Part shown: positions 1 through 29,810 of the stretch, piece after piece
How the letters are laid out: every line of letters begins with the position of its first letter
Numbering within the stretch: position 1 is the first letter of the stretch
NCBI RefSeq assembly: GCF_013184985.2
Contig: NZ_CP063418.1
Location: 2,232,001 to 2,296,000 of the forward strand
DNA length: 64,000 bases
Origin: Actinomyces faecalis
GTDB lineage: Bacteria; Actinomycetota; Actinomycetes; Actinomycetales; Actinomycetaceae
Direction of reading: 5' to 3'
Made by a program: the position numbers and the translations under genes
The notes under the pieces: model-generated
The model's input: the letters and a program-made list of their open reading frames with translations, nothing else
What the model was told of the DNA's origin: nothing
The model's database searches: none

Positions 1-1
1 G

Positions 2-280
2 CAGGTCACCGTAAAGGTGAGCGGCATCGGATTACAAGGAATTGCTTGGACGGCGAACAACAATCGGCGAATCGTCGAGCATCTCGCAACTTCATTCGGA
101 CCAGATCGCATGATGTTTGCCTCGAACTTCCCAGTGGATAGCCTGACAGCCTCCTACTCAGAGATCTGGAACGGATTCCTTGAGATCGTCAAGGACTACA
201 GTTCGACTGAGCAAAAGAAAATGTTTGCCGGAACAGCGCAGCACGTCTACCGTCTTCCCCCAGACCTGTTAACCGAGTAG
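2..280 (+). CDS. Amidohydrolase, COG3618 lactonase-like (C-terminal fragment)
   Basis: Open reading frame entering from the left edge, so the start is missing; about 92 codons remain. The visible end contains KVSGIG, FGPDRMMFASNFPVD and GTAQHVYRL, which match the C-terminal strands of COG3618/PF04909 TIM-barrel amidohydrolases, many of which hydrolyse sugar-acid lactones. The Asp in NFPVD corresponds to the conserved metal/catalytic Asp. It lies 50 bp before a PdxA-family gene on the same strand and shares its lower GC content, so the two are probably one operon. Substrate unknown; a lactonase feeding a sugar-acid pathway is an inference from context. Confidence 0.75.
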   Translation, partial: QVTVKVSGIGLQGIAWTANNNRRIVEHLATSFGPDRMMFASNFPVDSLTASYSEIWNGFLEIVKDYSSTEQKKMFAGTAQHVYRLPPDLLTE

Positions 281-330
281 CACCACCACAACCAGTATGC
301 AGAAAAAGATCGAGACGCAAGGAGAATCCT

Positions 331-1323
331 ATGCCCTCACATAACAAAATTCCTAAAATTACGATAACTCTTGGCGACTTTTCAGGTGTCGGACCAGAAC
401 TCGCGGTAAGGCTGCTGTCGAATCCGACGAACCTTGAGAAGGCTGCCGTTTCTATCTTCGCATCCGCCTCGGAAATCGCTACCATCTCAGACGAGTTTAA
501 TGTCACCGTTCCGATCGGTGACGATCCCGGTCCTGGTCACGTGTGCCTACTCGGATCCGAGCTGGCAGATATCCCCGTAGCGGCCAAACAGACTTCTGTT
601 GCCGCCGGCCGTCGCGTGATGTCTGATCTGCGCGCTGCAGTCCAGCGCTATAGAGATGGGTTGTCGGACTCATTGATGTTCCTGCCTCTGAACAAGACCT
701 CACTACACCTCGCTGGCATGCACGAGCACGATGAGTTACGGTGGTTCGCAAATCTCCTTGGCTTTGACGGCTTCACCAGCGAATTGAACTTCGTTCCTGG
801 GCTGACTACCTCTCGGGTTACCTCTCATATCCCTCTGTCTGAGGTCGCTTTCGGGATCACGGCCCGAGCAGTCCGTGATGCCATCACATTGCTTCACCGT
901 GTCATTCAGGGTACAGGTGTTCCCCACCCACGTATCGCGGTGGCTGCCCTCAACCCGCACGCGGGTGAGCACGGTCAGTTTGGACGCGAAGAGATCGAAC
1001 ACATCTCGCCAGGAATTGAATTGGCCAGTCAAGTCGATGGGGTCAATGTCGAAGGGCCATTCCCTTGCGACACGATCTTTATCAAGGCGAAGAAAGGTGA
1101 GTATGACGGTGTCGTGACCATGTATCACGATCAGGGTCAGATAGCCATGAAACTCATGGGTTTTGATTCTGGGGTCACTGTCCAAGGCGGCTTGCCTGTT
1201 CCTATCGTAACTCCGGCACACGGGACCGCATACGAGATTGTTGGTCTCGGCAAGGCTTCGCTTGGCCCCTCACAGCGAGCCTTCGACATTGCTGTGGATC
1301 TTGGGCGGCAGCACATGCACTGA
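331..1323 (+). CDS. PdxA-family 4-phospho-sugar-acid dehydrogenase (PdxA2-like)
   Basis: 330 aa, full family length. The ATG at 331 follows AAGGAG at 320-325. Family marks are GDFSGVGPE near residues 15-23 (GDPxGIGPE in standard PdxA), a metal-site His in MHEHDELRWF, LNPHAGEHGQFG, and YHDQGQIAMKLMGFD followed by GGLPVPIVTPAHGTA. The family oxidises and decarboxylates 4-phosphorylated hydroxy acids with NAD: PdxA acts on 4-phosphohydroxy-L-threonine, PdxA2 on D-threonate or D-erythronate 4-phosphate, giving DHAP. The neighbouring lactonase-like fragment and the tetrose-phosphate genes favour the catabolic PdxA2 role over vitamin B6 synthesis, but no DUF1537 kinase is visible here. GC content is clearly lower than in the genes that follow. 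Confidence 0.8.
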   Translation: MPSHNKIPKITITLGDFSGVGPELAVRLLSNPTNLEKAAVSIFASASEIATISDEFNVTVPIGDDPGPGHVCLLGSELADIPVAAKQTSVAAGRRVMSDLRAAVQRYRDGLSDSLMFLPLNKTSLHLAGMHEHDELRWFANLLGFDGFTSELNFVPGLTTSRVTSHIPLSEVAFGITARAVRDAITLLHRVIQGTGVPHPRIAVAALNPHAGEHGQFGREEIEHISPGIELASQVDGVNVEGPFPCDTIFIKAKKGEYDGVVTMYHDQGQIAMKLMGFDSGVTVQGGLPVPIVTPAHGTAYEIVGLGKASLGPSQRAFDIAVDLGRQHMH

Positions 1324-1495
1324 CGTCACGCGCACCAGGCGCTGTGGTCGGCTGAGCGGTCCTGCCGTCTGCCGATCACGGCGCCTGCGTCGTCCTCCCG
1401 TCTTCCACCCGGCACCGCCCCCCTGCGCCAGAGCCCGGTGCCATACTGACCGGGGCGCAGCAGCAAGACCTTTTCTCACCCCTGTAGGAGCTCTC

Positions 1496-2236
1496 GTGAC
1501 CATCGTCGCCGTCAGCCTCAAGATGTACTTCGAGCGTGCGCGCACGCTGCGCTACTGCGAGGAGGTGGCCCGTATCGCGGCCAGCGTCCCTGCCACGGCC
1601 GAGCTGCAGATGGCGGTCTACACCGACTTCCTCACGGTCCCGGCGGCAGCCCAGCGCCTGGCAGGCTCCTCTGTCCTGCTGGGGGCCCAGGACCTGGCTC
1701 CCGAGGACCGCGGTGCCCTGACCGGTGAGGTCTCCGGAGCGGACCTGGCAGACCTCGGGGTACGCACGGTGGAGGTCGGCCACTATGAGCGCCGCACGGT
1801 CTTCGGCGAGGACGAGCAGATGGTCGCTGCCAAGACCCGTGCAGCCCTGCGCAACGGCATGGTCCCCATGCTGTGCGTGGGCGAGCCTGAGCAGACTGAC
1901 CCCGCCAAGGCGGCTGAGGCGTGCCTGGCCCACGTCCGCTCCGCCGTCGGCCAGGAAGGAACTGACGCCCCGCTGTGGGTCGGTTACGAGCCCTACTGGG
2001 CGATCGGCGCCCCGCAGCCCGCGCCGGTGGGCTATGTCCAGGAGGTCTGCCAGGCCCTGCGCGCCGGGCTGACAGAGCTCGCTCCCACCGCCAGCGTCGT
2101 CTACGGAGGCTCAGCCGGACCGGGACTGCTCACCGAGCTCGTCCCGGCTGTCGACGGCGTCTTCCTGGGCCGCTTCGCCCACGACCCCGCGGCGCTGGAG
2201 CAGGTCGTGGCTGAGGCACTCGCTGTGCAGCCATAA
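1496..2236 (+). CDS. lerI: TIM-type L-erythrulose-1-phosphate isomerase (LerI/EryH-like)
   Basis: 246 aa from a GTG at 1496 preceded by AGGAG at 1486-1490; the open frame extends upstream, but that part is not protein-like. It has the triosephosphate isomerase fold with catalytic Lys9, His96 (VGHYERR) and Glu165 (GYEPYWAIG), and the phosphate-binding YGGSAGPG. The Asn normally two residues before Lys is Ser7 (VAVSLKMYF), as in tetrulose-phosphate isomerases of the EryH/TpiA2 type, and the end reads FLGRFAHDP instead of the usual TIM sequence. Known family reaction: L-erythrulose 1-phosphate <-> D-erythrulose 4-phosphate. It converges on the erythrulose kinase gene, which fits this substrate. 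An atypical glycolytic TIM remains possible. Confidence 0.72.
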   Translation: MTIVAVSLKMYFERARTLRYCEEVARIAASVPATAELQMAVYTDFLTVPAAAQRLAGSSVLLGAQDLAPEDRGALTGEVSGADLADLGVRTVEVGHYERRTVFGEDEQMVAAKTRAALRNGMVPMLCVGEPEQTDPAKAAEACLAHVRSAVGQEGTDAPLWVGYEPYWAIGAPQPAPVGYVQEVCQALRAGLTELAPTASVVYGGSAGPGLLTELVPAVDGVFLGRFAHDPAALEQVVAEALAVQP

Positions 2237-2257
2237 GAACCTGGCGGGCGACGCCTC

Positions 2258-2310
2258 ACAGCGACGAGGGAGGGGGCCACCAGTCGGTGGGTCCCCTCCC
2301 TCGTCGCTGT
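2258..2310. terminator. Bidirectional terminator between lerI and lerK
   Basis: Perfect inverted repeat with 18-bp arms (2258-2275 and 2293-2310) and a 17-nt loop, placed between two convergent genes. There is no T-tract, as is common in high-GC actinobacteria. Confidence 0.7.
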
Positions 2311-2342
2311 ACTCGCCGCACCCAGGCGACGACGGCCCCGGC

Positions 2343-4073
2343 TCAGTCTCCTAGCCGCTGAGCCACGGTCTCCGCCACGAGGGCGAAGGAGACCGCGCCC
2401 GGGTCAGGAACCTGACGGGCCTTCTCCCCGTGGGAGCGAGCCCGTCCGAGTCCCGGCATCATGCCGACAGTCGAGGCAGCCCCCTCGTGAGCCGCAGCGG
2501 CAGCCTGCCGCCACACCGCCTGAGCTGGCTCCTCGGCGTCGGCGAAGACGCGGGCAAAGGGAGCGAGGGCGTCGACAAGAGTCTTGTCCCCCACCTGTGC
2601 CCCGCCCTGACGAGTCACAGCCTCGTACGCTGCCTGGATCCCCTGGCGAAGGGAAGAGAGGTCTGCGCCCTCCTGGTCACCCAGCTGACGTCCGAGCGTG
2701 GCGAGCATCGTGTCCCACAGCGCGCCGGACGTCCCGCCTGCTCCGTCAGACCAGGCCCGGCCCGCCCGGACGAGCAAGGTACCGGCTCCCGCGCCTGCTG
2801 CTGCGAGCTCGGCGGCGCTCGCCGCGGCGGCCCTGGCCCCGTTGTGCATACCGATACCGTGGTCGCCGTCGCCGGCGATGGCGTCGATACGGCCCAGCTC
2901 ATCCATCTGGGCGTCGACTGCGTCGCTGACAGCACGCAGGACGTCCGCGACTCTCTCGGCAAGTCCTTGAGAAGCCAGCGAGGCGACCGGGAGGTCGGGC
3001 TCTCCATGCCGCGGGACGGCAGCCGTCTCCTCTCTCCGCTCAGACCGCACGACGGCGATCTCACCACCATCCGACTGCCCCACCTGGTACTCGGCCGAGC
3101 GGGCCGGCGCCCGCCACAGCTCCTCCAGCTCAGGATCGAGCCAGGCCAGGGTCAAGGACATCCCAGCCATCTCAAAGCTGGTGCAGAACTCTCCCACCTG
3201 GACGTCAGCCACCTCCACGCCAGCCGTCTCCAGCGCCTGTCTGATCTCGCCCCAGACGACGTAGAGCTCGTCCATCTTGACCGCACCCAGGCCGTTGACA
3301 AGGGCCACGACCCGCGAACCACGAGCACGACCGCCTGGAGCCTCTGCAAGGAGGCGGGAGACGAGCAGCTCAGCCAGGCCGGCCGGGTCAGGCGTGTCGA
3401 CCTCGTCCAGGCCCGGCTCGCCGTGGATGCCCAGGCCAACACCCATCCGTCCTTCGGGGACGGTGAACAGCGGAGCCTCGGCACCCGGCAGCGTGCATCC
3501 CGTCAAGGCCACTCCGAGGGTCCGGGTCACTGCGTTCGCCCGTCCAGCCAGTGCGTGGACCGTCTCCAGGTCGTCTCCGCGCGCGGCTGCCGCGCCAGCG
3601 ACCTTGAAGACCACAAGGTCTCCCGCCAGGCCTCGACGCCATTCGGCCTCCTCGGGAGGGGCCGATGAGACGTCGTCGGTCACGCGCACGGTGCGTACCG
3701 GGGTCCCTGCCGCCTCCAGCCTGGCGGCCGCGGCGTCGAACTGGAGCCTGTCACCTGCGTAGTTGCCGTAGCTGAGCAGGACGCCACGGCCCTGCTCCAC
3801 GGCTCGGGCCACGCCCTCGACCTGGCCGGCTGAGGGCGAGGCGAAGATGTTGCCCAGCACCGCGCCGTGGGCCAGCCCCGGGCCCACGAGCCCGGCGAAC
3901 GCCGGGTAGTGGCCGCTGCCACCGCCGATGACGAGCGCTACCTGGTCCTCGCAGTCACGCGTGGCCCGCGCGACTCCGCCGTCGATAGGCTGAACCAGGT
4001 CAGCATGAACCTGGGCGAAGGACTGCACGGCCAGGGCCGCGAAGGTCGAGGGATCGTGCTTGAGATAGGTCAT
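2343..4073 (-). CDS. lerK: Fused DhaK-DhaL kinase, probable L-erythrulose 1-kinase
   Basis: 576 aa. The N-terminal DhaK domain (about 1-330) has GGGSGHYPAFAGLVG and the His of LGIHGEPG, which forms a covalent hemiaminal with the ketose carbonyl. The C-terminal DhaL domain (about 375-576) has the Mg-ATP motif IAGDGDHGIGM and DGAGGTSGALWDTM. This single-chain, ATP-dependent layout is that of dihydroxyacetone kinases and of the L-erythrulose (LerK) and D-erythrulose (DerK) kinases. It is the last gene of a leftward operon oiaC-apnO-gntP-lerK, 14 bp after the permease. Neighbouring tetrose-phosphate isomerases of the LerI and EryI type point to L-erythrulose; plain dihydroxyacetone kinase is the alternative. 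Confidence 0.75.
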   Translation of the reverse strand: MTYLKHDPSTFAALAVQSFAQVHADLVQPIDGGVARATRDCEDQVALVIGGGSGHYPAFAGLVGPGLAHGAVLGNIFASPSAGQVEGVARAVEQGRGVLLSYGNYAGDRLQFDAAAARLEAAGTPVRTVRVTDDVSSAPPEEAEWRRGLAGDLVVFKVAGAAAARGDDLETVHALAGRANAVTRTLGVALTGCTLPGAEAPLFTVPEGRMGVGLGIHGEPGLDEVDTPDPAGLAELLVSRLLAEAPGGRARGSRVVALVNGLGAVKMDELYVVWGEIRQALETAGVEVADVQVGEFCTSFEMAGMSLTLAWLDPELEELWRAPARSAEYQVGQSDGGEIAVVRSERREETAAVPRHGEPDLPVASLASQGLAERVADVLRAVSDAVDAQMDELGRIDAIAGDGDHGIGMHNGARAAAASAAELAAAGAGAGTLLVRAGRAWSDGAGGTSGALWDTMLATLGRQLGDQEGADLSSLRQGIQAAYEAVTRQGGAQVGDKTLVDALAPFARVFADAEEPAQAVWRQAAAAAHEGAASTVGMMPGLGRARSHGEKARQVPDPGAVSFALVAETVAQRLGD

Positions 4074-4087
4074 GACTCAGCACCGTC

Positions 4088-5479
4088 CTACGCAACCAGC
4101 CACAACAGGCTGATGATCGCCATCCCGAGGAAGCCTCCTACGGTGCACAGCACCGTCCACGTCCTCAGGCCACCGGCAACGCTCAGGCCGAGGAGGCGCG
4201 AGGAGATCCAGAACCCGGAGTCGTTGATGTGGGACAGCGAGACCGATCCCATCCCGATTGCCAGGATGATGAGGGCCACCTGGAAGTCGGTGTAGCCACC
4301 GGTCTCCACAGCAGACTGCATGAGGCCGGCTGCTGCAAGCGTGGCGACCGTACCGGACCCCTGAGCCACCTTGAAGACCAGGGCCACAAGGAACGCCATG
4401 AACAGGATGGGCACCCCGGCGTCCATGAGCAGCCCAGCCACAGCCTCACCGATGCCGGACTCCGTGAGCACCTTGGCGAAGACACCGCCGGCACCGGTGA
4501 CGAACACGACCACGGCTGCCGGCCCGAGTGCTGCGTCCATCAGGGCACTCATCTCCTGCTGGGGCCAGCCGTTGCAGCGTCCGAGCACCCACATGGCCAG
4601 GACGACCGCGACGATGAGCGCGAAGCCAGGAGCTCCGACGAAGGAGGCGACGCGGCGGAAGGTGCACCCCTCCTCCGCGACGACGGAGACGATGGTGCCG
4701 AAGGAGATCATGAGGATCGGCAGCAGGATCATGGCCACCACCGTCCACGCACGCGGCTTGCGCAGCGCCGTGGCAGCCTGCCCCGTCTTGCTCGCAACGG
4801 CAGAGAAGTCAGCGGCCCCTGTGGAGTCGTAGGTACGACGCACCTCCGCGGACAGCGGAAGGTCCTGACGAGTCAGTCGGTTGGAGACCAGGTAGATCAC
4901 CACACCGATCGGCACGGCCAGCGCGATGCCAAGCATGGTCACCAGGCCGAGCGCGTCGCCACGCAACAGGGCGGTTGAGCCGGTGACACCGGGGTGAGGT
5001 GGGACGGAGTTGTGGATGAAGACCATCGTGGCAGCCACCGGGGCACCCAGAATAACTGGGGAGCGGTGGCCCGCAGCCTTGGCAAAGCTGAAGATGATCG
5101 GGACCAGGATGATGAAGCCGACGTCGAAGAAGATCGGGATCGCGATCAGGCCGGACGCGATCAGCAGCGCTGGGCCGAGTCGCTCCTTGCCCAGCAGCTG
5201 GACAGCCCGCGTGGCGACCACCTCGGCACCACCGGTCTTCTCGATGATTCCACCGAGCATGGCTCCGAGCCCGACCAGGAGCGCCACGGACCCGAGAGTG
5301 CCACCCATACCCGCGATGACAGTCGGCACGATCTCGTCGATCGGGATCCCGGCGGCAGCCGCGGTAGCCACCGAGACGGCAAGCAGCGCGACGTATGCCG
5401 GCCATTTCAGACGCATGACGAGCAGGAGCAGGGCGGCGATCGCTAGCGCCGCGACAATGAAGAGATAGGTCACGCTCAT
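4088..5479 (-). CDS. GntP-family sugar-acid:H+ symporter
   Basis: 463 aa integral membrane protein with about 12-14 hydrophobic segments. It carries GntP-family features: an early GMGGTLGSVALLVGLGAMLG stretch, IPIFFDVGFIILVPI, NSVPPHPG, GVFAKVLTESGIG, AQGSGTVA and SLSHINDSGFWI. The family imports gluconate and other aldonates with protons. It lies in the leftward operon between the kinase and the ApnO-type enzyme, so its cargo is probably the acid that ApnO uses (D-apionate). The cargo is inferred; the family is clear. Confidence 0.85.
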   Translation of the reverse strand: MSVTYLFIVAALAIAALLLLVMRLKWPAYVALLAVSVATAAAAGIPIDEIVPTVIAGMGGTLGSVALLVGLGAMLGGIIEKTGGAEVVATRAVQLLGKERLGPALLIASGLIAIPIFFDVGFIILVPIIFSFAKAAGHRSPVILGAPVAATMVFIHNSVPPHPGVTGSTALLRGDALGLVTMLGIALAVPIGVVIYLVSNRLTRQDLPLSAEVRRTYDSTGAADFSAVASKTGQAATALRKPRAWTVVAMILLPILMISFGTIVSVVAEEGCTFRRVASFVGAPGFALIVAVVLAMWVLGRCNGWPQQEMSALMDAALGPAAVVVFVTGAGGVFAKVLTESGIGEAVAGLLMDAGVPILFMAFLVALVFKVAQGSGTVATLAAAGLMQSAVETGGYTDFQVALIILAIGMGSVSLSHINDSGFWISSRLLGLSVAGGLRTWTVLCTVGGFLGMAIISLLWLVA

Positions 5480-5557
5480 GACGAGGAGTCCTCCGTGTCA
5501 CGCCCCGGGCTGGCGCCACCGCCTACCGCTGCGGCGCCAGCCCGGTGCCAACACGTC

Positions 5558-6457
5558 TCAGTGCTCGACCTTGTCGAGCTTGAGCATCTTGGCGATGACG
5601 ACGTCAAGGTCGTCGTCCTTCCAGATCTTCTTCCAGTCCTCCTTGATGATCGCCTCGCGACCGTAGTCCATCGCCAGCAGGCAGGCGTCGGAGAAGGGGT
5701 TGGAGCCACGCAGGGCGTTGGTCAGGGCGATGTAGATGTGCCCGTAGAAGATGGCCTTGACAGCGTCCTCGGGGATTCCGATCTCCTTGACCGCGTAGTC
5801 CATCGAGTCCTTGAGGAACTGTCCGATCATGCAGCCGGTAGTCTCAACCAACGTGGGCTCCAGCTGGGCGAGCTGGTGCACAGTGACCCAGTGGACGTCG
5901 ATGACAGGGGCGTACTGGGCACGGATGACGGCGTCAGCGACCTCCTTCTGGCGGTCGGTCGCGTCCTCGACAGCCGCCACGACCTCCTGCGGGGCGCTGA
6001 TACCGCCGAAGGTGTCGTTCCACTGGTCACCCTCACGCTCGAGGAAGACAGAGGGGTGGCAGGGGTGGGCACAGGCCAGTGCCACGCCGTCGGCTCGGGC
6101 GATCAGCCCGGCGTAGGCGGCAGCCGGGTCCAGCGTGAGCAGGACCGAGCCGGGACGCATCAGCGGCACGACGGTCTCGGAGACCGGCCCAAGAGCGATG
6201 TCCGGCACAGCCAGGATGACGACGTCGCACTCAGCGGCGACGTCCTCAATCCTGCTGATCTCGCGTCCCAGCTCCTTGACCGCGGCCTGGCCGCGCTCAG
6301 AGGACTCGCAGTAGTAGATCGTGGCGTCAGTGAGGTTGAGGTTGTTGGACACACGCGTGCCCATCTTGCCGGCGGCGCCGACGACGGCAATCCTCAGGGA
6401 GGGGTCAAGCTCCACGGTCTTGCCGTACAAGGGGTTGAGGGTCTTCGAGTCAGTCAT
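5558..6457 (-). CDS. apnO: D-apionate oxidoisomerase-like dehydrogenase (ApnO)
   Basis: 299 aa from ATG 6457, preceded by AAAGGA. An N-terminal NAD-binding Rossmann fold carries VVGAAGKMGTRVSNNL (residues 25-40), followed by an all-helical phosphogluconate-dehydrogenase-C type domain (PF16896-like) with ACAHPCHPSVF, HQLAQLEPTLVETTGCMIG and the end region DYGREAIIKEDWKKIW. This family includes ApnO, which oxidises and rearranges D-apionate to 3-oxo-isoapionate. Flanking OiaC-like, LerK-like, LerI-like and RpiB-like genes complete that route, which is the main reason for the specific name. Another sugar-acid dehydrogenase of the same fold cannot be excluded from sequence alone. Confidence 0.7.
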   Translation of the reverse strand: MTDSKTLNPLYGKTVELDPSLRIAVVGAAGKMGTRVSNNLNLTDATIYYCESSERGQAAVKELGREISRIEDVAAECDVVILAVPDIALGPVSETVVPLMRPGSVLLTLDPAAAYAGLIARADGVALACAHPCHPSVFLEREGDQWNDTFGGISAPQEVVAAVEDATDRQKEVADAVIRAQYAPVIDVHWVTVHQLAQLEPTLVETTGCMIGQFLKDSMDYAVKEIGIPEDAVKAIFYGHIYIALTNALRGSNPFSDACLLAMDYGREAIIKEDWKKIWKDDDLDVVIAKMLKLDKVEH

Positions 6458-6551
6458 GACAGGTCCTTTCTGAGACTGGGCATCGTTGCCAGGTCGAAGG
6501 TGAACGGGACTATCAGCCACTGCGCCGCGCCACGTGCGCGCACAGGGCCCA

Positions 6552-6583
6552 CCGCGGCCGGTTCCGTTCAGCACCGGCCGCGG
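6552..6583 (-). terminator. Intercistronic hairpin between oiaC and apnO
   Basis: Perfect 11-bp inverted repeat (6552-6562 and 6573-6583, loop 10 nt) in the 148-bp gap between two co-directional genes. It may attenuate transcription or mark mRNA processing within the operon; no T-run follows. Confidence 0.45.
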
Positions 6584-6605
6584 AGCTTGTGGGACGGACG
6601 GGCCG

Positions 6606-7436
6606 CTACCGCGCGGCGGCCCTCAGGTCCAGGAGCCTGCGGACCGCGGTCTCGGTCCAGCTGCGCTCCAGGGCGATGGTGGTCTCGATATCGCCTTGCC
6701 AGGGCACCCAGTGCTCGACGACGGCGCTCGGCCGGTCCGGGTCGCTGCCGCCCGCTCCCGAGTCGCCGTAGACGGCTTGGATCTCGGCGTCCAGGTCGAG
6801 CAGCCCTTCACCCAGCCGGGCTCCTGCGTACAGGAAGCCGACCCAGCCCTCGTTACGGGTGAAGGCGAAGTCCTTCACGTGCAAGTTGGTCACCAGGCCG
6901 GAGGTCTTGGCCATGACCGAGTCCGGTGTCTCCAGAGCCGAGACGCAGTTGGCCGGGTCCAGGCAGATTCCGACTCGCTCGGAGTCGACCGCTCTGACGA
7001 CCCGTACCAGGTCGTCAGTCGGGACCTGCTCATAGGTCTCCAGAGCAAGGGTGACGTCCGCGGCCTCCAGCACCGGCACGAGCCTTCGCAGCCGGTCCAC
7101 GACAGGCTCCAGACCGCCCGCGACCTCAGTCGCCTGGACCATGGAGCGCAGCAACCTGACCCCCAGCCTCTGCGCCCGCCGGACGTAGGCGCTCAGGTGT
7201 TCCAGGCCGGTGCCACGTGTCCCCAGCTCCAGCTCAACGTCAAGGCTGCGGGCACGGTCCGCCACAGCGTCGAGCCCTTGGTCGTCATAGTCCTCGATGC
7301 GAGGATCGTCGCAGATCTGGAAGACGTCGCAGCCGAGCTCCTTGGCCCAGTCGATCATGGCCTCGATCCCCAGAGGGTGGGGACAGCGCTCGTTCCACTC
7401 CCAGAACAGGGCATAGGTTCCGATTCCGACGCGCAT
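6606..7436 (-). CDS. oiaC: Xylose-isomerase-fold protein, probable 3-oxo-isoapionate decarboxylase (OiaC)
   Basis: 276 aa from ATG 7436 (MRVGIGTYALFWEW), with a GAGGTG ribosome site just upstream; an in-frame ATG 21 bp earlier is less well placed. Sugar phosphate isomerase/epimerase TIM-barrel features include VFQICDDPRI, ELGTRGTGLEHL, LALETYEQ, VGICLDPANC and NLHVKDFAFTR, where Glu, Asp, His and Glu metal ligands are expected. It is the first gene of the leftward operon with ApnO, GntP and LerK. In described apionate pathways OiaC, of this superfamily, decarboxylates 3-oxo-isoapionate to L-erythrulose, exactly the substrate of the kinase two genes on. The alternative is an EryC-like tetrulose-phosphate racemase. 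Confidence 0.62.
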   Translation of the reverse strand: MRVGIGTYALFWEWNERCPHPLGIEAMIDWAKELGCDVFQICDDPRIEDYDDQGLDAVADRARSLDVELELGTRGTGLEHLSAYVRRAQRLGVRLLRSMVQATEVAGGLEPVVDRLRRLVPVLEAADVTLALETYEQVPTDDLVRVVRAVDSERVGICLDPANCVSALETPDSVMAKTSGLVTNLHVKDFAFTRNEGWVGFLYAGARLGEGLLDLDAEIQAVYGDSGAGGSDPDRPSAVVEHWVPWQGDIETTIALERSWTETAVRRLLDLRAAAR

Positions 7437-7475
7437 GGTCACCTCATCGTGAAGCACAGGTGTCTGTGAAGATAT

Positions 7476-7485
7476 CGGTCAACCA
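7476..7485. promoter_or_regulatory. Secondary FadR-type half-operator near oiaC
   Basis: CGGTCAACCA, one mismatch from the TGGTNNACCA core, 40 bp upstream of the oiaC start, where it could cover the leftward promoter. Confidence 0.4.
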
Positions 7486-7544
7486 CATACGCATCATTGC
7501 GTGATGGAGACCACTGACACGCACGAAGATAGTGCCAATCATGC

Positions 7545-7573
7545 AATTGGTCAACCAGATTGGTTGACCAATT
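7545..7573. promoter_or_regulatory. Palindromic GntR/FadR operator between oiaC and fadR
   Basis: A 29-bp inverted repeat with perfect 13-bp arms (AATTGGTCAACCA and its complement) around a GAT centre. Each arm contains TGGTNNACCA, the core recognised by FadR-subfamily GntR regulators. It lies 43 bp before the fadR ATG and 109 bp before oiaC, so one site can control both directions. The repressor and inducer are inferred. Confidence 0.75.
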
Positions 7574-7615
7574 TGATCTCCTGCTGAGCCTTCTCGCGTC
7601 CCCTACGATCAGGGC

Positions 7616-8428
7616 ATGTCCTTCCCACCTCCTCCCAGCGCGGACGACTCCGCGCCACTCGGCTCCTCACGAACCGCCGAGCAGCTCCTGGAGCTGATCC
7701 TCGAGTCGGGACTACGCCCCGGCGACCGGCTGCCCGCCGAGCGCACGCTGGTCAACCAGCTGGGCGTGGGGCGCTCTGCCGTCAGGGAGGCCATCCGAAC
7801 TATCGAGTTCCTCGGCCTCGTCGAGACGATCGGCGGATCAGGGACCTACGTGCGCAACTCGGTCAACAACCTGCTTCCCACTACCCTGAAGTGGGGAATG
7901 ATGCTCTCACGTGGACAGACCGAGGACCTTCACCAGGTCCGCGCCGCCTTGGAGGTCTCTGCCGTCGAGGTCGCTTCACGGCGCTACAACCCCCAGACCC
8001 TGGCCGAGCTCGAGTCCTTCATCACCCAGCAGGAGGGGGCGCTGGAGGACCCGGCCCACTTCGTGGAGGCCGATGCCGCCTTCCACCTGCACATCACCAC
8101 CGTCGCCGGCAACGCCATCCTTGCCGACCTCCTGGTGACCACCCGCTCACTCCTGCGCGTGTGGGATGAGCGATCGGTCCATGATCCCGCCGACATGCGG
8201 GACGCCCTGCGCGAGCACGCCATGATCGTCAAGGCGTTGAAGAACGGGGAAGCCGCCAACGCTGCCGCAGCCATGCGCCTGCACATGATGACGGCCCAGA
8301 CCCGCCTGCTGGCAGCAATACCGACCGAGCAAGAGGCCGGCCCCTACTCCCATCCGATATCCGGACCCCTCGCCACCACCGCGCACGGCGGGATGCTGTC
8401 CCGCATCCCGCCCGCACCCACCCATTGA
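7616..8428 (+). CDS. FadR-subfamily GntR transcriptional regulator
   Basis: 270 aa. The N-terminal winged helix (about 18-85) has PGDRLPAERTLVNQLGVGRSAVREA. The C-terminal FCD domain (about 95-230) has the spaced acidic/His residues of the metal-binding effector pocket (DAAFHLHI, EHAMIV, MRLHMM). FCD regulators respond to organic and sugar acids. It diverges from oiaC and precedes rpiB and tkt. Matching TGGTNNACCA sites in the intergenic region and before rpiB make it the likely local regulator. A further TGGTCAACCA occurs inside its own coding region at 7749-7758. The last 30 residues or so are Pro/Gly-rich and probably disordered. Confidence 0.88.
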   Translation: MSFPPPPSADDSAPLGSSRTAEQLLELILESGLRPGDRLPAERTLVNQLGVGRSAVREAIRTIEFLGLVETIGGSGTYVRNSVNNLLPTTLKWGMMLSRGQTEDLHQVRAALEVSAVEVASRRYNPQTLAELESFITQQEGALEDPAHFVEADAAFHLHITTVAGNAILADLLVTTRSLLRVWDERSVHDPADMRDALREHAMIVKALKNGEAANAAAAMRLHMMTAQTRLLAAIPTEQEAGPYSHPISGPLATTAHGGMLSRIPPAPTH

Positions 8429-8458
8429 GACCCGAAGGCAAGGGCGCTGACGTATGCT

Positions 8459-8470
8459 GTGGTTGACCAC
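8459..8470. promoter_or_regulatory. FadR-type operator upstream of the rpiB-like gene
   Basis: The perfect TGGTNNACCA core (TGGTTGACCA) flanked by G and C, 46 bp before the rpiB-like ATG. It matches one arm of the 7545-7573 palindrome, so rpiB probably belongs to the same regulon. Confidence 0.7.
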
Positions 8471-8515
8471 TTTCCTAGATAATATTTGATTCCACCACAG
8501 ACAAAGGAGTCCTGT

Positions 8516-8956
8516 ATGAAGCTCGCATTCGGGTGCGACCCCAACGCCACCGACCTCAAGGCCGTCCTCATCGAGGAGGCCAGGAAGCTCGGCCACGAGG
8601 TGGTCGACTACCCCTCCGAGGACCCGATCTACGCCAACGTCGCCATCGCGGTGGCCACCGACGTGGCCGCCGGCAAGGCGGACCGCGGCGTCCTCGTGTG
8701 CGGCACCGGCATCGGCGTGTCCATCGCGGCCAACAAGGTCCCCGGCGCCTACTGCGCCTGCGTGGCCGACGTCTACCAGGCACAGCGCGCCAGCCTGTCC
8801 AACAACGCCAACCTCATCTCCATGGGCTCCCAGGTCGTGGGCACCGAGAGCGCCAAGGTCTTCCTGCGTGAGTACCTGGCCGGGCAGTTCGACCCCAACG
8901 GCCGCTCCGGCCCCAAGGTCGAGCGCATCTGCGAGTTCGAGCGCACCCAGGCCTGA
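8516..8956 (+). CDS. derI: RpiB/LacAB-family isomerase, probable D-erythrulose-4-phosphate isomerase
   Basis: 146 aa; ATG 8516 follows AAAGGAG at 8502-8508. RpiB/LacAB fold with Cys62 as catalytic base in VLVCGTGIGVSIAANK, N-terminal GCDPNATDLK in place of the usual DHAG motif, and SNNANLISMGSQVVG. Known members interconvert ribulose/ribose 5-phosphate, or, as EryI/DerI, D-erythrulose 4-phosphate and D-erythrose 4-phosphate. The FadR-type operator upstream, LerI- and LerK-like genes nearby and the transketolase downstream support the tetrose-phosphate role. Confidence 0.72.
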   Translation: MKLAFGCDPNATDLKAVLIEEARKLGHEVVDYPSEDPIYANVAIAVATDVAAGKADRGVLVCGTGIGVSIAANKVPGAYCACVADVYQAQRASLSNNANLISMGSQVVGTESAKVFLREYLAGQFDPNGRSGPKVERICEFERTQA

Positions 8957-9014
8957 CCACAGACCCCTCCCCACTTTTGTTCTCCCCTGATACTTTTGGG
9001 GCGGGAACACCACT

Positions 9015-9069
9015 CTCCCGAGCGCGGGGCGTGCTGCGCACAGTTGAGCCAGCACGCCCCGCGCGGGAG
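9015..9069 (+). terminator. Hairpin between rpiB-like gene and transketolase
   Basis: Perfect 14-bp arms (9022-9035 and 9051-9064) with a 15-nt loop, extended by a further CTCCC/GGGAG pairing past a small bulge. It follows the rpiB-like stop by about 60 bp and precedes tkt by about 60 bp, so tkt may have its own promoter or be partly attenuated. Confidence 0.6.
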
Positions 9070-9130
9070 GATCAGCACAGTCGGGGCAACACTCATCGTC
9101 GCCCCACCCACGACTAAGGAGCCTCAAACG

Positions 9131-11215
9131 ATGAGCCCTGCCCCCTTCTCTCTGACCGATGACGACCGCAAGGCCATCGTCGTCTCCAAGGCGCTGGCGG
9201 CTGACGCCGTCGAGAAGGCCGGATCCGGTCACCCGGGTGCCGCCATCTCCCTTGCCGGCGTCGCCTACCTGCTCTACCAGTACGAGATGACCTCGGACCC
9301 CGCCAATCCACACTGGCTGGGCCGCGACCGCTTCGTCCTGTCCGCCGGGCACGCCTCCGTGCTCCAGTACATCCAGCTCACCCTGGCGGGCTACGGCCTG
9401 GAGGTCAGCGACCTCAAGCAGCTGCGTCAGGCAGGCTCCCTGACCCCTGGCCACCCCGAGTACGGCCACACCAAGGGCGTGGAGACCACCACCGGCCCAC
9501 TGGGTGCGGGCCTGACCAACGCCGTCGGTCTGGCCATGGCCGCCCGCCGTGAGCACGGCCTGTTTGACGCCACCACCCCGGCCGGGGAGTCTGTCTTTGA
9601 CCACTTCGTCTACACGATCATGGGCGATGGCTGCCTCCAGGAGGGAGTGTCCGCCGAGGCCGCCTCCCTGGCCGGCACCCAGCAGCTGGGCAACCTCATC
9701 GCCATCTACGACGACAATGACATCTCCATCGAGGGTGACACCGACATCTCCTTCACTGAGGACCCCTCCGCCCGCTTCGCCGCCTACGGCTGGCAGGTGC
9801 TGGACGTGGACTGGAAGAAGGGCGGCACCTACCACGAGGACCTGGAGGCCCTCCACGACGCGCTGGAGGAGGCTCGCGCCGAGACCTCGCGCCCCACTCT
9901 CATCCGCCTGCGTACCATCATCGCCTGGCCCTCCCCCACCAAGCAGGGCACGGCCGGCTCCCACGGCTCCAAGCTCGGCACCGACGAGGTCGCCGGCCTC
10001 AAGGAGGCCCTCGGCCTAGACCCGTCCACAAGCTTCGACGTCCCCGCTGACCTGCTGGACTACACCCGTGGGCACGCGGCCGAGCGCGCCAGGGCTGCTC
10101 GCGAGGACTGGGACGCACGCTTCGAGGCCTGGAAGTCCGCCAACACCGAGGGCGCGGCCCTGCTGGAGCGCCTAGAGGCCCACGCCCTGCCCGAGGGCCT
10201 GGCCGACGCACTGCCCTCCTGGGGGCTTGGCGAGTCGGTGTCCACCCGCTCCGCCTCCGGCAAGACCCTCACCGCCCTGGCTCCGGTCATGCCGGAGCTG
10301 TGGGGCGGCTCGGCCGACCTGGCCGGCTCAAACAACACCTCGATGGCCGGCGAGCCCTCCTTCCTCCCGGCCAGCCTCGCCCGGAACGAGGGGGACGGCC
10401 CCTACGGCCGCACCCTCCACTTCGGCATCCGCGAGCACGCCATGGGTGGCATCCTCAACGGCATCGCTCTGGACGGCCTGACCCGCCCTTACGGCGGCAC
10501 CTTCCTGGTCTTCAGCGACTACATGCGTCCGGCCGTCCGACTGGCCGCCCTCATGGGCCTGCCCTCGACCTTCGTGTGGTCCCACGACTCCATCGGCGTG
10601 GGCGAGGACGGTCCCACCCACCAGCCGGTCGAGCACCTGGCCGCCCTGCGTGCCATCCCGGGCCTCGCCGTCGTCCGCCCGGCCGACGCCAACGAGACCG
10701 CGGCTGCGTGGCTGGCGGTCCTGGAGCAGCGCGGCCCTGCCGGACTCATCCTGAGCCGCCAGAACCTCCAGGTCGCGGCGACCCCGCAAGCGGCCCGCGA
10801 GGGCCTGCGCAAGGGCGCCTACGTCCTGGCCGAGGCCACCGACGCCTCCGGCGCCGAGGTCAGCCCCGCCGTTGTTCTCGTGGCCACCGGCTCCGAGGTG
10901 GGCGTGGCGCTGGGCGCCCGCGAGCTGCTGCAGAAGGAGGGCACCCCCGCACGCGTGGTCTCCGCACCCTGCCTGGAGTGGTTCGACGCCCAGGACGAGG
11001 CGTACCAGGCCTCCGTCCTGCCCCAGGACGTCACCAAGGTGGCCATCGAGGCGGGCATCGCCATGGGGTGGCGCGAGTACGTGGGCGACGGCGGCGCGAT
11101 CGTCTCTCTGGAGCACTACGGAGCCTCGGCCCCGGGCTCGCTGCTGTTCGAGGAGTACGGCTTCACGCCCGAGCACGTGGCTGAGGTCGCCGCTCAGGCT
11201 CTCAGCAGGGCCTGA
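9131..11215 (+). CDS. tkt: Transketolase
   Basis: 694 aa from ATG 9131 after TAAGGAG at 9115-9121; the open frame upstream is not protein-like. The N-terminal thiamine diphosphate domain has GHPGAAISLA, TTGPLGAGLTNAVG and GDGCLQEG...YDDNDISIEGD (the cofactor/Mg motif). The pyrimidine-binding domain has FGIREHAMGGI and SHDSIGVGEDGPTHQP, and a C-terminal domain follows. It moves two-carbon units between ketose and aldose phosphates using xylulose 5-P, ribose 5-P, erythrose 4-P and others. Its position after the erythrulose-phosphate isomerase gives the erythrose 4-P made there a route into the pentose phosphate pathway. It may also be the housekeeping copy. Confidence 0.95.
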   Translation: MSPAPFSLTDDDRKAIVVSKALAADAVEKAGSGHPGAAISLAGVAYLLYQYEMTSDPANPHWLGRDRFVLSAGHASVLQYIQLTLAGYGLEVSDLKQLRQAGSLTPGHPEYGHTKGVETTTGPLGAGLTNAVGLAMAARREHGLFDATTPAGESVFDHFVYTIMGDGCLQEGVSAEAASLAGTQQLGNLIAIYDDNDISIEGDTDISFTEDPSARFAAYGWQVLDVDWKKGGTYHEDLEALHDALEEARAETSRPTLIRLRTIIAWPSPTKQGTAGSHGSKLGTDEVAGLKEALGLDPSTSFDVPADLLDYTRGHAAERARAAREDWDARFEAWKSANTEGAALLERLEAHALPEGLADALPSWGLGESVSTRSASGKTLTALAPVMPELWGGSADLAGSNNTSMAGEPSFLPASLARNEGDGPYGRTLHFGIREHAMGGILNGIALDGLTRPYGGTFLVFSDYMRPAVRLAALMGLPSTFVWSHDSIGVGEDGPTHQPVEHLAALRAIPGLAVVRPADANETAAAWLAVLEQRGPAGLILSRQNLQVAATPQAAREGLRKGAYVLAEATDASGAEVSPAVVLVATGSEVGVALGARELLQKEGTPARVVSAPCLEWFDAQDEAYQASVLPQDVTKVAIEAGIAMGWREYVGDGGAIVSLEHYGASAPGSLLFEEYGFTPEHVAEVAAQALSRA

Positions 11216-28056: not shown

Positions 28057-29810
28057 GCCAGAACCTCCTGTCCTCTCGCAGATGATTCGGTCCCGGTGGC
28101 GACCGGTGAGATGGTGGGCAGGGCGCTGCCTGCCAGCACGGGCGGGTGGGACAGGGCCTGCTCAGCAGCAGCCTGCTCGTCCGCGGTCGCCATGCCGTCC
28201 TCGGCGTCCACCAGAGCGGTGGCCACGGCCGATGGTGCAGGCGCTTGTGGCAGGTCCTCGATGTCGAGGGTCCCCTGGAGCATCCAGAAGTCCAGTGCCG
28301 TCTCTCGCACCTGTTCCCCGTGCAAAATGGTCCACAGGCCGATCCAGCGGTGACGCAGGAAGGTCTTGAGGCTCTCCGAGGCATCGGCAGCCGAGTACCC
28401 CGAGCAGCAGGCTCGCAGACCCGCCACCCGTGGGGCACAGAAGCCCCCCTGGCACGGCCCCATGGCCACCCGGAGCTGGCGGCGCAGGTCATCGAAGGAG
28501 GCGTCAGGCTGCTGCTCCATGAGGTCGGTGACCGCCTTCCGCCCCACCAGCTCACACTCGCAGATGGTCTGGTCCCCCAGGCGGTTGTCCTCCCGCTCCC
28601 CCAGGCGGTGGGTGATGTGGTAATTCGGTGTGCCGACGCTGCCGGGGACCTCCTCCTGCGCCGTCCGGCAAGGGGCGGTGACCCCCAGCTCGGCGCACAT
28701 GGCGTCCACGGCGTGCTGGGCCATCAGGCGGTAGGTGGTGAGCTTGCCGCCGGCCACCGTGATCATGCCGGCCAGCCCCTCGGCCCGGGCGTGGCTGATC
28801 ACTGTCATCCCTCGGCTCATGTGGCGCGTGTCATCGGAGGAGACGGAGGTGTCCAGGACGAGCGGGCGGGCGCCAGCCCAGGCGTGCAGAGCACGGACCT
28901 GGCGGAAGCCAGGGATCAGGACCTCCCCGGCGTCGAGCATCTGGGCAACCTCCTGGCGGGGGATCGCCAGGTGGTCAGGGTCCTCGGCACGGCGGTCGGT
29001 GGTACCGATGATGGAGACGGTGTGGTCGGGCACGATGATGTCCCCGTCAGCGGGGTGGACGCAGCGGTTGACCACGTGGTTGACCAGACGGTGGTTCATC
29101 GCGATCATGACGCCCCGGCCAGCGGCGATCTTGACCGAGGTCGATCCGGCCATCGTGGCCAAGCGCCCGCCCCAGGGGCCGGCGGCGTTCATGAGCATCC
29201 GGCAGCTGACGGTCAGCTCCTCGCCGGTCTTGACCCCACGGGCACGCACGGCCACCACGCGGCGGCCCTGCCCCTCGCCCTCGACGATGACATCGGTGAC
29301 CTCGTGATAGGTCAGCACCTGAGCGCCATAGGCCTGAGCCGAGCGGGCCGCGCCCCAGACCATCTGCCAGCCGTCAACGGCGCCGTCATGGACGCGGAAG
29401 GCCCGTTTAATGCCCGGGTTCAGGCGTGGCTCCAGGCGCAGGGCCTCAGACAGGCTGATCTCCTCAGCCGGCACCCCCGTGGCACGGGCACCGGCGATGA
29501 AGTCGTCAGAGAAGGCGAGGTCGTCCTCGGGCGTGACGACGAACAACCCTCCCACCCGTTCAACGGCGGAGGAGTGGATGCGTGAGACGATCTCGTTCTC
29601 CTGGGCGCACTCCGTAGCCGACTGGGGGTCGGAGACCACGTAGCGTCCACCTGAGTGGAGCAGGCCGTGGAAGCGTCCGGACGTGCCCTGGGCCAGGTCC
29701 GCCCTCTCTAAGAGCACCACGCTCAAACCTCGCATCGCCGCGTCCCGGGCTATGCCGACTCCCGTCGCACCGCCTCCCACGACGACGACGTCGGCACTCA
29801 GGCTCTTCAT
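28053..29810 (-). CDS. glpA: Anaerobic glycerol-3-phosphate dehydrogenase subunit A
   Basis: 585 aa from ATG 29810 preceded by GGAGG; the 49-codon upstream extension runs through the operator region. FAD domain DVVVVGGGATGVGIARDAAMRG, RFHGLLHSGGRYVV, VSIIGTTDRR and ITVAGGKLTTYRLMAQHA, then a BFD-like [2Fe-2S] domain with CECELVGRKAV and GPCQGGFCAPR. It oxidises glycerol 3-phosphate to DHAP. First gene of glpABC, divergent from glpF. The last 70 residues or so are an Ala/Ser/Pro-rich tail not typical of GlpA. Confidence 0.95.
   Translation of the reverse strand: MKSLSADVVVVGGGATGVGIARDAAMRGLSVVLLERADLAQGTSGRFHGLLHSGGRYVVSDPQSATECAQENEIVSRIHSSAVERVGGLFVVTPEDDLAFSDDFIAGARATGVPAEEISLSEALRLEPRLNPGIKRAFRVHDGAVDGWQMVWGAARSAQAYGAQVLTYHEVTDVIVEGEGQGRRVVAVRARGVKTGEELTVSCRMLMNAAGPWGGRLATMAGSTSVKIAAGRGVMIAMNHRLVNHVVNRCVHPADGDIIVPDHTVSIIGTTDRRAEDPDHLAIPRQEVAQMLDAGEVLIPGFRQVRALHAWAGARPLVLDTSVSSDDTRHMSRGMTVISHARAEGLAGMITVAGGKLTTYRLMAQHAVDAMCAELGVTAPCRTAQEEVPGSVGTPNYHITHRLGEREDNRLGDQTICECELVGRKAVTDLMEQQPDASFDDLRRQLRVAMGPCQGGFCAPRVAGLRACCSGYSAADASESLKTFLRHRWIGLWTILHGEQVRETALDFWMLQGTLDIEDLPQAPAPSAVATALVDAEDGMATADEQAAAEQALSHPPVLAGSALPTISPVATGTESSARGQEVLA

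Follow-up and report, generated by a model that had tools for sequence, protein, structure and literature searches.

We analysed a 64,000-nucleotide stretch of the Actinomyces faecalis genome (2.70 Mb, two contigs), called the window here, which comprises bases 2232001–2296000 of contig C1; negative positions lie to its left on that contig. Near its left end is a gene cluster that an earlier note had read as a route from D-apionate to D-erythrose 4-phosphate. The cluster lies on an island that is absent from the nearest relative examined, encodes orthologues of proteins from apiose and apionate loci, and includes an RpiB-family protein with a distinct motif. Each of the genes listed below has an intact reading frame at, or close to, its noted position, with start and stop codons read for six of them, and Pfam and NCBIfam agree with the families assigned to them:

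1496–2236, plus strand: TIM-family protein, proposed L-erythrulose-1-phosphate isomerase (LerI slot); PF00121, 173.9 bits.
2343–4073, minus strand: DhaK-DhaL kinase, proposed L-erythrulose kinase; NF011049, 657 bits (cut-off 492).
4088–5479, minus strand: GntP-family permease, proposed D-apionate importer; PF02447, 361 bits; TIGR00791, 310 bits (cut-off 293).
5558–6457, minus strand: ApnO-like protein, putative D-apionate oxidoisomerase, 299 amino acids; PF16896, 172.5 bits.
6606–7436, minus strand: OiaC-like protein, putative 3-oxo-isoapionate decarboxylase, 276 amino acids, heading the minus-strand run; PF01261, 70.9 bits.
7616–8428, plus strand: GntR/FCD regulator, divergent from oiaC; PF00392 and PF07729.
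8516–8956, plus strand: RpiB-family protein, proposed D-erythrulose-4-phosphate isomerase (DerI); PF02502.
9131–11215, plus strand: housekeeping transketolase adjoining the island; single copy in 41 of 41 genomes of the genus.

The OiaC, ApnO, GntP and DhaK-DhaL genes form one minus-strand run with intergenic gaps of 148, 78 and 14 base pairs (bp), opposed by the GntR and RpiB genes, and the TIM gene is convergent to the run. From sequence comparison, this cluster very probably serves D-apionate catabolism of the known ApnO–OiaC type. D-apionate would be taken up by GntP and oxidised by ApnO with a shift of its hydroxymethyl group, giving 3-oxo-isoapionate, which OiaC would decarboxylate to L-erythrulose. 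The DhaK-DhaL protein would then form L-erythrulose 1-phosphate, the TIM relative, acting as LerI, would convert this to D-erythrulose 4-phosphate, and the RpiB relative, acting as DerI, would yield D-erythrose 4-phosphate, which the ordinary transketolase encoded alongside could feed into the pentose phosphate pathway. We infer every substrate in this scheme, as well as the importer role and the regulation.

The ApnO-like protein has a PF16896 C-terminal domain behind a Rossmann domain, as expected of the family, PF16896 itself not being specific to ApnO. It matches PDB entries 5t57 (169 bits) and 3c24 (128 bits) and is 73% identical to a Brachybacterium copy. The OiaC-like gene encodes a TIM barrel of the sugar-isomerase type and adjoins ApnO. 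Its product is 42–53% identical to 14 other proteins of ApnO clusters, with residues E133, D160, H186 and E241 conserved. The structure predicted for it has a predicted local distance difference test score of 92.7, in a fold common to many epimerases, so the fold alone is not decisive. The profile and structure comparison called for by the earlier note bore out ApnO (PF16896, 5t57, 34% identity to ApnO relatives) and placed the putative OiaC by family (PF01261) and context.

Gene neighbourhoods of relatives point the same way. A profile from 15 OiaC-like proteins found 356 relatives in named genomes, and the best 80 were taken as loci. Because flanks extended to no more than 10 kb and some contigs end early, the counts are lower bounds; thresholds were at least 100 bits for proteins resembling D-apionate lactonase (ApnL-like), at least 250 for the dehydrogenase and binding protein, and at least 400 for GntP and the Pantoea-type MFS transporter, and looser values shift the counts slightly. 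ApnO accompanies the OiaC-like gene in 79 of the 80 loci, spanning Actinomycetota and Pseudomonadota, which makes the grouping more than chance; in the remaining locus (L134) the contig stops about 340 bp beyond OiaC. Of the same 80 loci, 59 have a relative of the window's kinase, 58 one of its RpiB and 61 one of its TIM. Genes linked to apiose are scarcer: ApnL-like genes occur in 17, close relatives of a Rhizobium Gfo/Idh/MocA dehydrogenase in 11 and an apiose-type binding protein in 4. GntP is found in 10 loci and the Pantoea-type MFS transporter in 57. Three Pseudomonas loci (L187, L198 and L203) each hold the dehydrogenase, binding protein, ABC transporter, ApnL-like gene, ApnO, OiaC, kinase, RpiB and TIM, and the ApnO–OiaC module is also found on Erwinia and Pantoea plasmids. 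Among the 102 loci compared by ApnO, 24 have a lactonase-like gene; in the window's genome, the apiose/apionate context is limited to the OiaC-to-DerI part.

In Rhizobium sp. BT03, an ApnO relative (35% identical to the window's) shares a run with OiaX, a kinase, TIM, RpiB, an ABC transporter, a Gfo/Idh/MocA dehydrogenase, which we take to be apiose dehydrogenase, and a 624-residue protein that scores 1060 bits with the D-apionate lactonase model (ApnL; cut-off 750). OiaX scores 781 bits (cut-off 700) and RpiB passes the DerI model at 257 bits (cut-off 240), but the kinase stays at 467 bits against an OiaK cut-off of 700. The binding protein of this locus matches PDB 5ibq at 608 bits, presumably a structure solved with apiose. 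Orthology and gene context together support the core route from D-apionate to D-erythrose 4-phosphate.

The last three steps differ in how closely their proteins match known examples. The DhaK-DhaL protein belongs to its kinase family, is 50–56% identical to kinases of related clusters, and is proposed to be the L-erythrulose kinase (LerK). The genome has a canonical TIM elsewhere (309 bits, at 1349552) and another RpiB (166 bits, at 1884391), so the window's copies are extra. The earlier note's assignment of RpiB as DerI is favoured by CGTGIG and SNN motifs, shared with the Rhizobium DerI-type protein, where the genome's other RpiB has GGSGNGE and RQHN; that these motifs define DerI is our own suggestion. 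The TIM protein, which that note assigned as LerI, shares 45–48% identity with same-slot TIMs of seven related clusters; its identity to the Rhizobium TIM is 36%, and to the genome's canonical TIM 41% over 194 residues. PDB entry 11ef is an L-erythrulose-1-phosphate isomerase (LerI/EryH), and the Rhizobium TIM, at 376 bits, is clearly of its group. Because the window's TIM is not, we regard it as a divergent extra copy whose LerI role is proposed by position, the least secure assignment in the route.

Several observations weigh against assigning the cluster to D-apionate. The window's TIM ranks PDB entries 3s6d (144 bits) and 9quu (122) ahead of 11ef (114), and its RpiB reaches 137 bits with the DerI model NF051858, a rhizobial model with a cut-off of 240. 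ApnO is only 34% identical to the Rhizobium and Paraburkholderia relatives in apiose/apionate loci, and an NCBIfam search matched no ApnO model to it. The nine closest ApnO rows show no apiose marker, lactonase included, in the stretches covered, and the actinobacterial ApnL-like proteins score 128–259 bits with the lactonase model, for which the cut-off is 750. In the window's own genome, the D-apionate lactonase model NF049900 found no match, where the same search matched 9 of 23 records, 2 of them above the cut-off. There is also no close apiose dehydrogenase (best match 30%, 67 bits) in a search restricted to the Gfo/Idh/MocA type, which an unrelated dehydrogenase would escape; two other records with an apiose-dehydrogenase gene gave 391 and 477 bits in that search.

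The earlier note had seen no apiose oxidation genes in view, and this holds genome-wide: neither gene expected of a complete D-apiose pathway, a lactonase or a close apiose dehydrogenase, was found. On these grounds, apionate itself rather than apiose is likely to be imported, with GntP as the candidate carrier. The ApnO tree (102 rows) points the same way. It groups the window's ApnO with the nine rows just mentioned, from Brachybacterium and Agrococcus (support 100/99), each of which carries a GntP scoring 400 bits or more and lacks a lactonase in the stretch covered. GntP relatives 56–64% identical to the window's also lie beside ApnO in Brachybacterium, Arthrobacter and genomes G093 and G262. 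GntP and an ApnL-like gene occur together in 0 of the 102 loci, which is not significant (p = 0.064, uncorrected for relatedness). The next row outside the GntP clade, L150, has an ApnL-like gene, and rows with apiose markers lie on both sides of the main split of the tree. In this tree, ApnO does not fall in with any family whose known substrate is different, an outcome that would have refuted the earlier note's reading.

The apionate cluster forms the right half of a 17.2-kb island. In G018, the nearest by transketolase (91%) of the genomes compared, tkt comes straight after lacI and the aligned parts are 191 bp apart; the window's genome has 17,158 bp in that place (2223801–2240958). This one empty site was read to the base, in a genome 89% complete. 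An ApnO orthologue occurs in only 1 of 58 other genomes (36 of the same genus and 22 of the same order), namely G058, from another family (61%); the remaining matches there are at Rossmann level only (best E value 3.5e-7). Since ApnO is absent from all 36 other sampled genomes of the genus, gain of the island is likelier than loss. Among 394 genomes of the class, 22 ApnO matches have E values of at most 1e-15: the window's own, 17 at 55–61% identity, and 4 in small genomes at 33–34%. The transketolase, which the earlier note had made the end of the pathway, uses its product and adjoins the cluster; it is a housekeeping neighbour, not a pathway member or part of the acquired set. It gave one match in each of 41 genus genomes, is 68–91% identical in the other 40, and no other match in its own genome spans the N-terminal domain in full.

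The left half of the island carries a second sugar-acid module, in the order GntR, second DhaK-DhaL kinase, TIM-barrel protein, MFS transporter, SDR, second MFS transporter, COG3618 and PdxA, followed by the TIM gene. The barrel, SDR, COG3618 and PdxA families come from family searches, the others from sequence similarity or reading. The features that place this half are:

−8199 to 8958: whole island, defined by flank comparison with G018; 1–8958 lies inside the window.
−5432 to −4509 (C1 2226568–2227491): TIM-barrel gene; 414 bits to PDB 5tnv.
−2154 to −2115 and 1310–1349: left and right copies of a perfect 40-bp direct repeat.
−649 to 280 (1–280 in view), plus strand: COG3618 lactonase-like gene, 309 amino acids; PF04909; NF052480, 90 bits (cut-off 400).
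331–1323, plus strand: PdxA-family dehydrogenase of the low-GC block; PF04166, 253 bits.

With the genome read leftward, the COG3618 gene, which the earlier note had called partial, is complete; the PdxA gene had been left out of its route. The second MFS, COG3618 and PdxA genes lie in a block of low guanine-cytosine (GC) content (C1 2229846–2233349; −2154 to 1349), at 54.5% against 67.2% and 67.7% in its flanks. The direct repeats bound this block and overlap the ends of the SDR and PdxA genes. Low GC content and repeats are a sign of later insertion.

We compared 19 loci with such a barrel (L129–L136, L150, L227–L234, L243 and L244), of which 9 came from the OiaC set, 8 from the 17 other genomes with a match and 2 from 94 plasmids. 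The barrel is partnered by a 3-hydroxyacyl-CoA-dehydrogenase-like gene (a label read from sequence, not from a family search) in 11 of the 19, by PdxA in 4, by neither in the stretch covered in 4, and by both in none. The window's PdxA is 70% identical to that of Brachybacterium L129. Kinase, RpiB and TIM are also present in 7 of the 8 barrel loci outside the OiaC set and plasmids, and some barrel genes have an acid transporter as neighbour (TctABC in L243 and L244; a GntP-like protein in L227 and L228). In six other genomes (G058, G093, G114, G160, G262 and G264), the barrel module and ApnO are both present but sit either on separate contigs or at a distance of more than 1 Mb, and the modules can thus be separated.

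We hypothesize that the left half is an acid-sugar branch feeding the same erythrulose-phosphate trunk. More specifically, and with rather less than even confidence, we propose an undescribed route in which a straight-chain sugar acid, perhaps a pentonate, becomes a 3-oxo acid and is decarboxylated and phosphorylated, converging on that trunk. PdxA would oxidise C3, a task that elsewhere may fall to the unrelated 3-hydroxyacyl-CoA-dehydrogenase-like enzyme; the 5tnv-type barrel would decarboxylate the product to a ketose, which for a five-carbon acid would be erythrulose; the second DhaK-DhaL kinase would phosphorylate it, and the LerI- and DerI-like isomerases would finish the conversion. Within this route, the main alternative is a four-carbon acid leading to dihydroxyacetone; against it, the main alternative is that the barrel is a 3-epimerase. 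A D-threonate-type pairing of PdxA2 with a DUF1537 kinase was rejected, as PF07005 was unmatched in the window's genome and matched 3 of 14 controls.

Three other explanations compete with D-apionate catabolism. The left half might supply the apiose end, with the SDR as apiose dehydrogenase and COG3618 as lactonase, in which case the entire island would degrade apiose. Both halves do share one island, COG3618 is lactonase-like, and SDR relatives at 32–36% identity lie beside ApnO and ApnL-like genes in some loci. Closer SDR relatives (41–61%), however, accompany the TIM barrel, also in clusters that lack ApnO, and COG3618 belongs to the later low-GC insertion and scores far below the lactonase-like cut-off; we consider an apiose-degrading island improbable. 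It is similarly unlikely that the GntP clade (window, Brachybacterium and Agrococcus) applies the same chemistry to another branched or aldonic acid while keeping the L-erythrulose trunk. The uniform GntP and missing apiose markers of the nine other clade members would fit such a substrate, as would the lack of an ApnL match in the genome. The missing markers fit uptake of ready-made apionate equally well, however, and the clade is nested in a larger group with lactonase-like genes on both sides, including L150.

LerK, LerI and DerI also function in the use of threitol and erythritol by Mycobacterium smegmatis. These roles would favour a cluster for tetritols or free erythrulose, in which the kinase and the LerI- and DerI-like proteins do the work and ApnO and OiaC merely accompany them. 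The tight same-strand run of OiaC, ApnO, GntP and kinase, and the constancy of the ApnO–OiaC pair across two phyla, make this very unlikely, and D-apionate catabolism remains by far our preferred reading.

The cluster may have its own control. The motif TGGTYRACCA occurs five times in the window, and four of these sites fall within 7548–8469, against 0.16 expected:

7548–7570: two sites in a 25-bp inverted repeat between oiaC and gntR, possible operator.
7749–7758: one site inside gntR.
8460–8469: one site upstream of rpiB, possible operator.

The fifth site lies at 29077–29086. A GntR relative (at least 130 bits) occurs in 58 of 98 related loci. As the motif is not conserved (1 of 58 relatives), we claim only local relevance for it. 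GntR probably regulates the oiaC–apnO–gntP–dhaKL run and rpiB.

Some further observations concern the surroundings and more distant relatives. To the left of the island, C1 2209133–2223810 holds genes read from sequence as xylose isomerase, xylulokinase, a glycoside hydrolase and a sugar ABC transporter, a stretch common to G018. The G018 lacI–tkt spacer (L122 18692–18882) contains a long inverted repeat that was not seen, by eye, at the junctions in the window's genome. At C1 60218–61867, another TIM barrel of sugar-isomerase type lies beside a partial-length transketolase N-terminal domain, perhaps belonging to a two-subunit transketolase. Five large actinobacterial genomes of one family in the class (L070, L071, L073, L076 and L077) have ApnO without OiaC in the stretch covered, and L073 has an OiaX-like fragment (41%) about 8 kb away. 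In a small-genome actinobacterium (G100, 1.4 Mb; L082 8630–15980), a single run holds a distant ApnO (34% identical to the window's) together with OiaC-like (33%) and ApnL-like (25%) proteins and ABC transporter genes.

A D-apiose/D-apionate pathway via ApnO and OiaC to L-erythrulose was reportedly described by Carter et al. in 2018 (Nat Chem Biol 14:696, as cited in PMC6302742). The present cluster resembles it in bringing together ApnO-like and OiaC-like proteins, a DhaK-DhaL kinase and LerI- and DerI-type isomerases; it differs in that the genome yielded no lactonase or close apiose dehydrogenase. The cluster also has a GntP permease where most relatives have an MFS or ABC transporter, and its TIM is of another subgroup than the solved isomerase. 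Brachybacterium sp. YJGR34 (L129) is similar, with OiaC (60%), ApnO (73%), GntP (64%), PdxA (70%) and the TIM barrel (56%) in one 20.8-kb stretch, but has one kinase of the left-half type, a Rhizobium-type TIM, a TctABC-like transporter (read from sequence) and another gene order. In the OiaK–OiaX branch, 3-oxo-isoapionate is phosphorylated before decarboxylation. Rhizobium BT03 and Rhodobacteraceae strain LCG007 represent this branch; ApnO is common to both variants, and BT03 also has a LerI-slot TIM and DerI. In the window's genome, which has no PF07005 (DUF1537-type kinase) match, an OiaC-type enzyme and a later kinase would replace OiaK and OiaX. A 2025 report describes growth of strain LCG007 on D-apiose and a cluster of lactonase, dehydrogenase, ApnO, OiaK and OiaX (PMC11747546). 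These findings support the general route, not the variant seen here.

The pathway is known from other bacteria; its genomic place is new, and it is rare in the sampled genus. These results place the apionate route in an Actinomyces-like genus, with its insertion site read against a close relative, and suggest that GntP-type clusters may import the acid itself rather than the sugar. The companion module, which occurs in rhizobia as well as in several families of actinobacteria, is the island's more novel part. If the route proposed for it is true, the apionate logic would there be used a second time: a 3-oxo acid is made and decarboxylated, and the product is phosphorylated.

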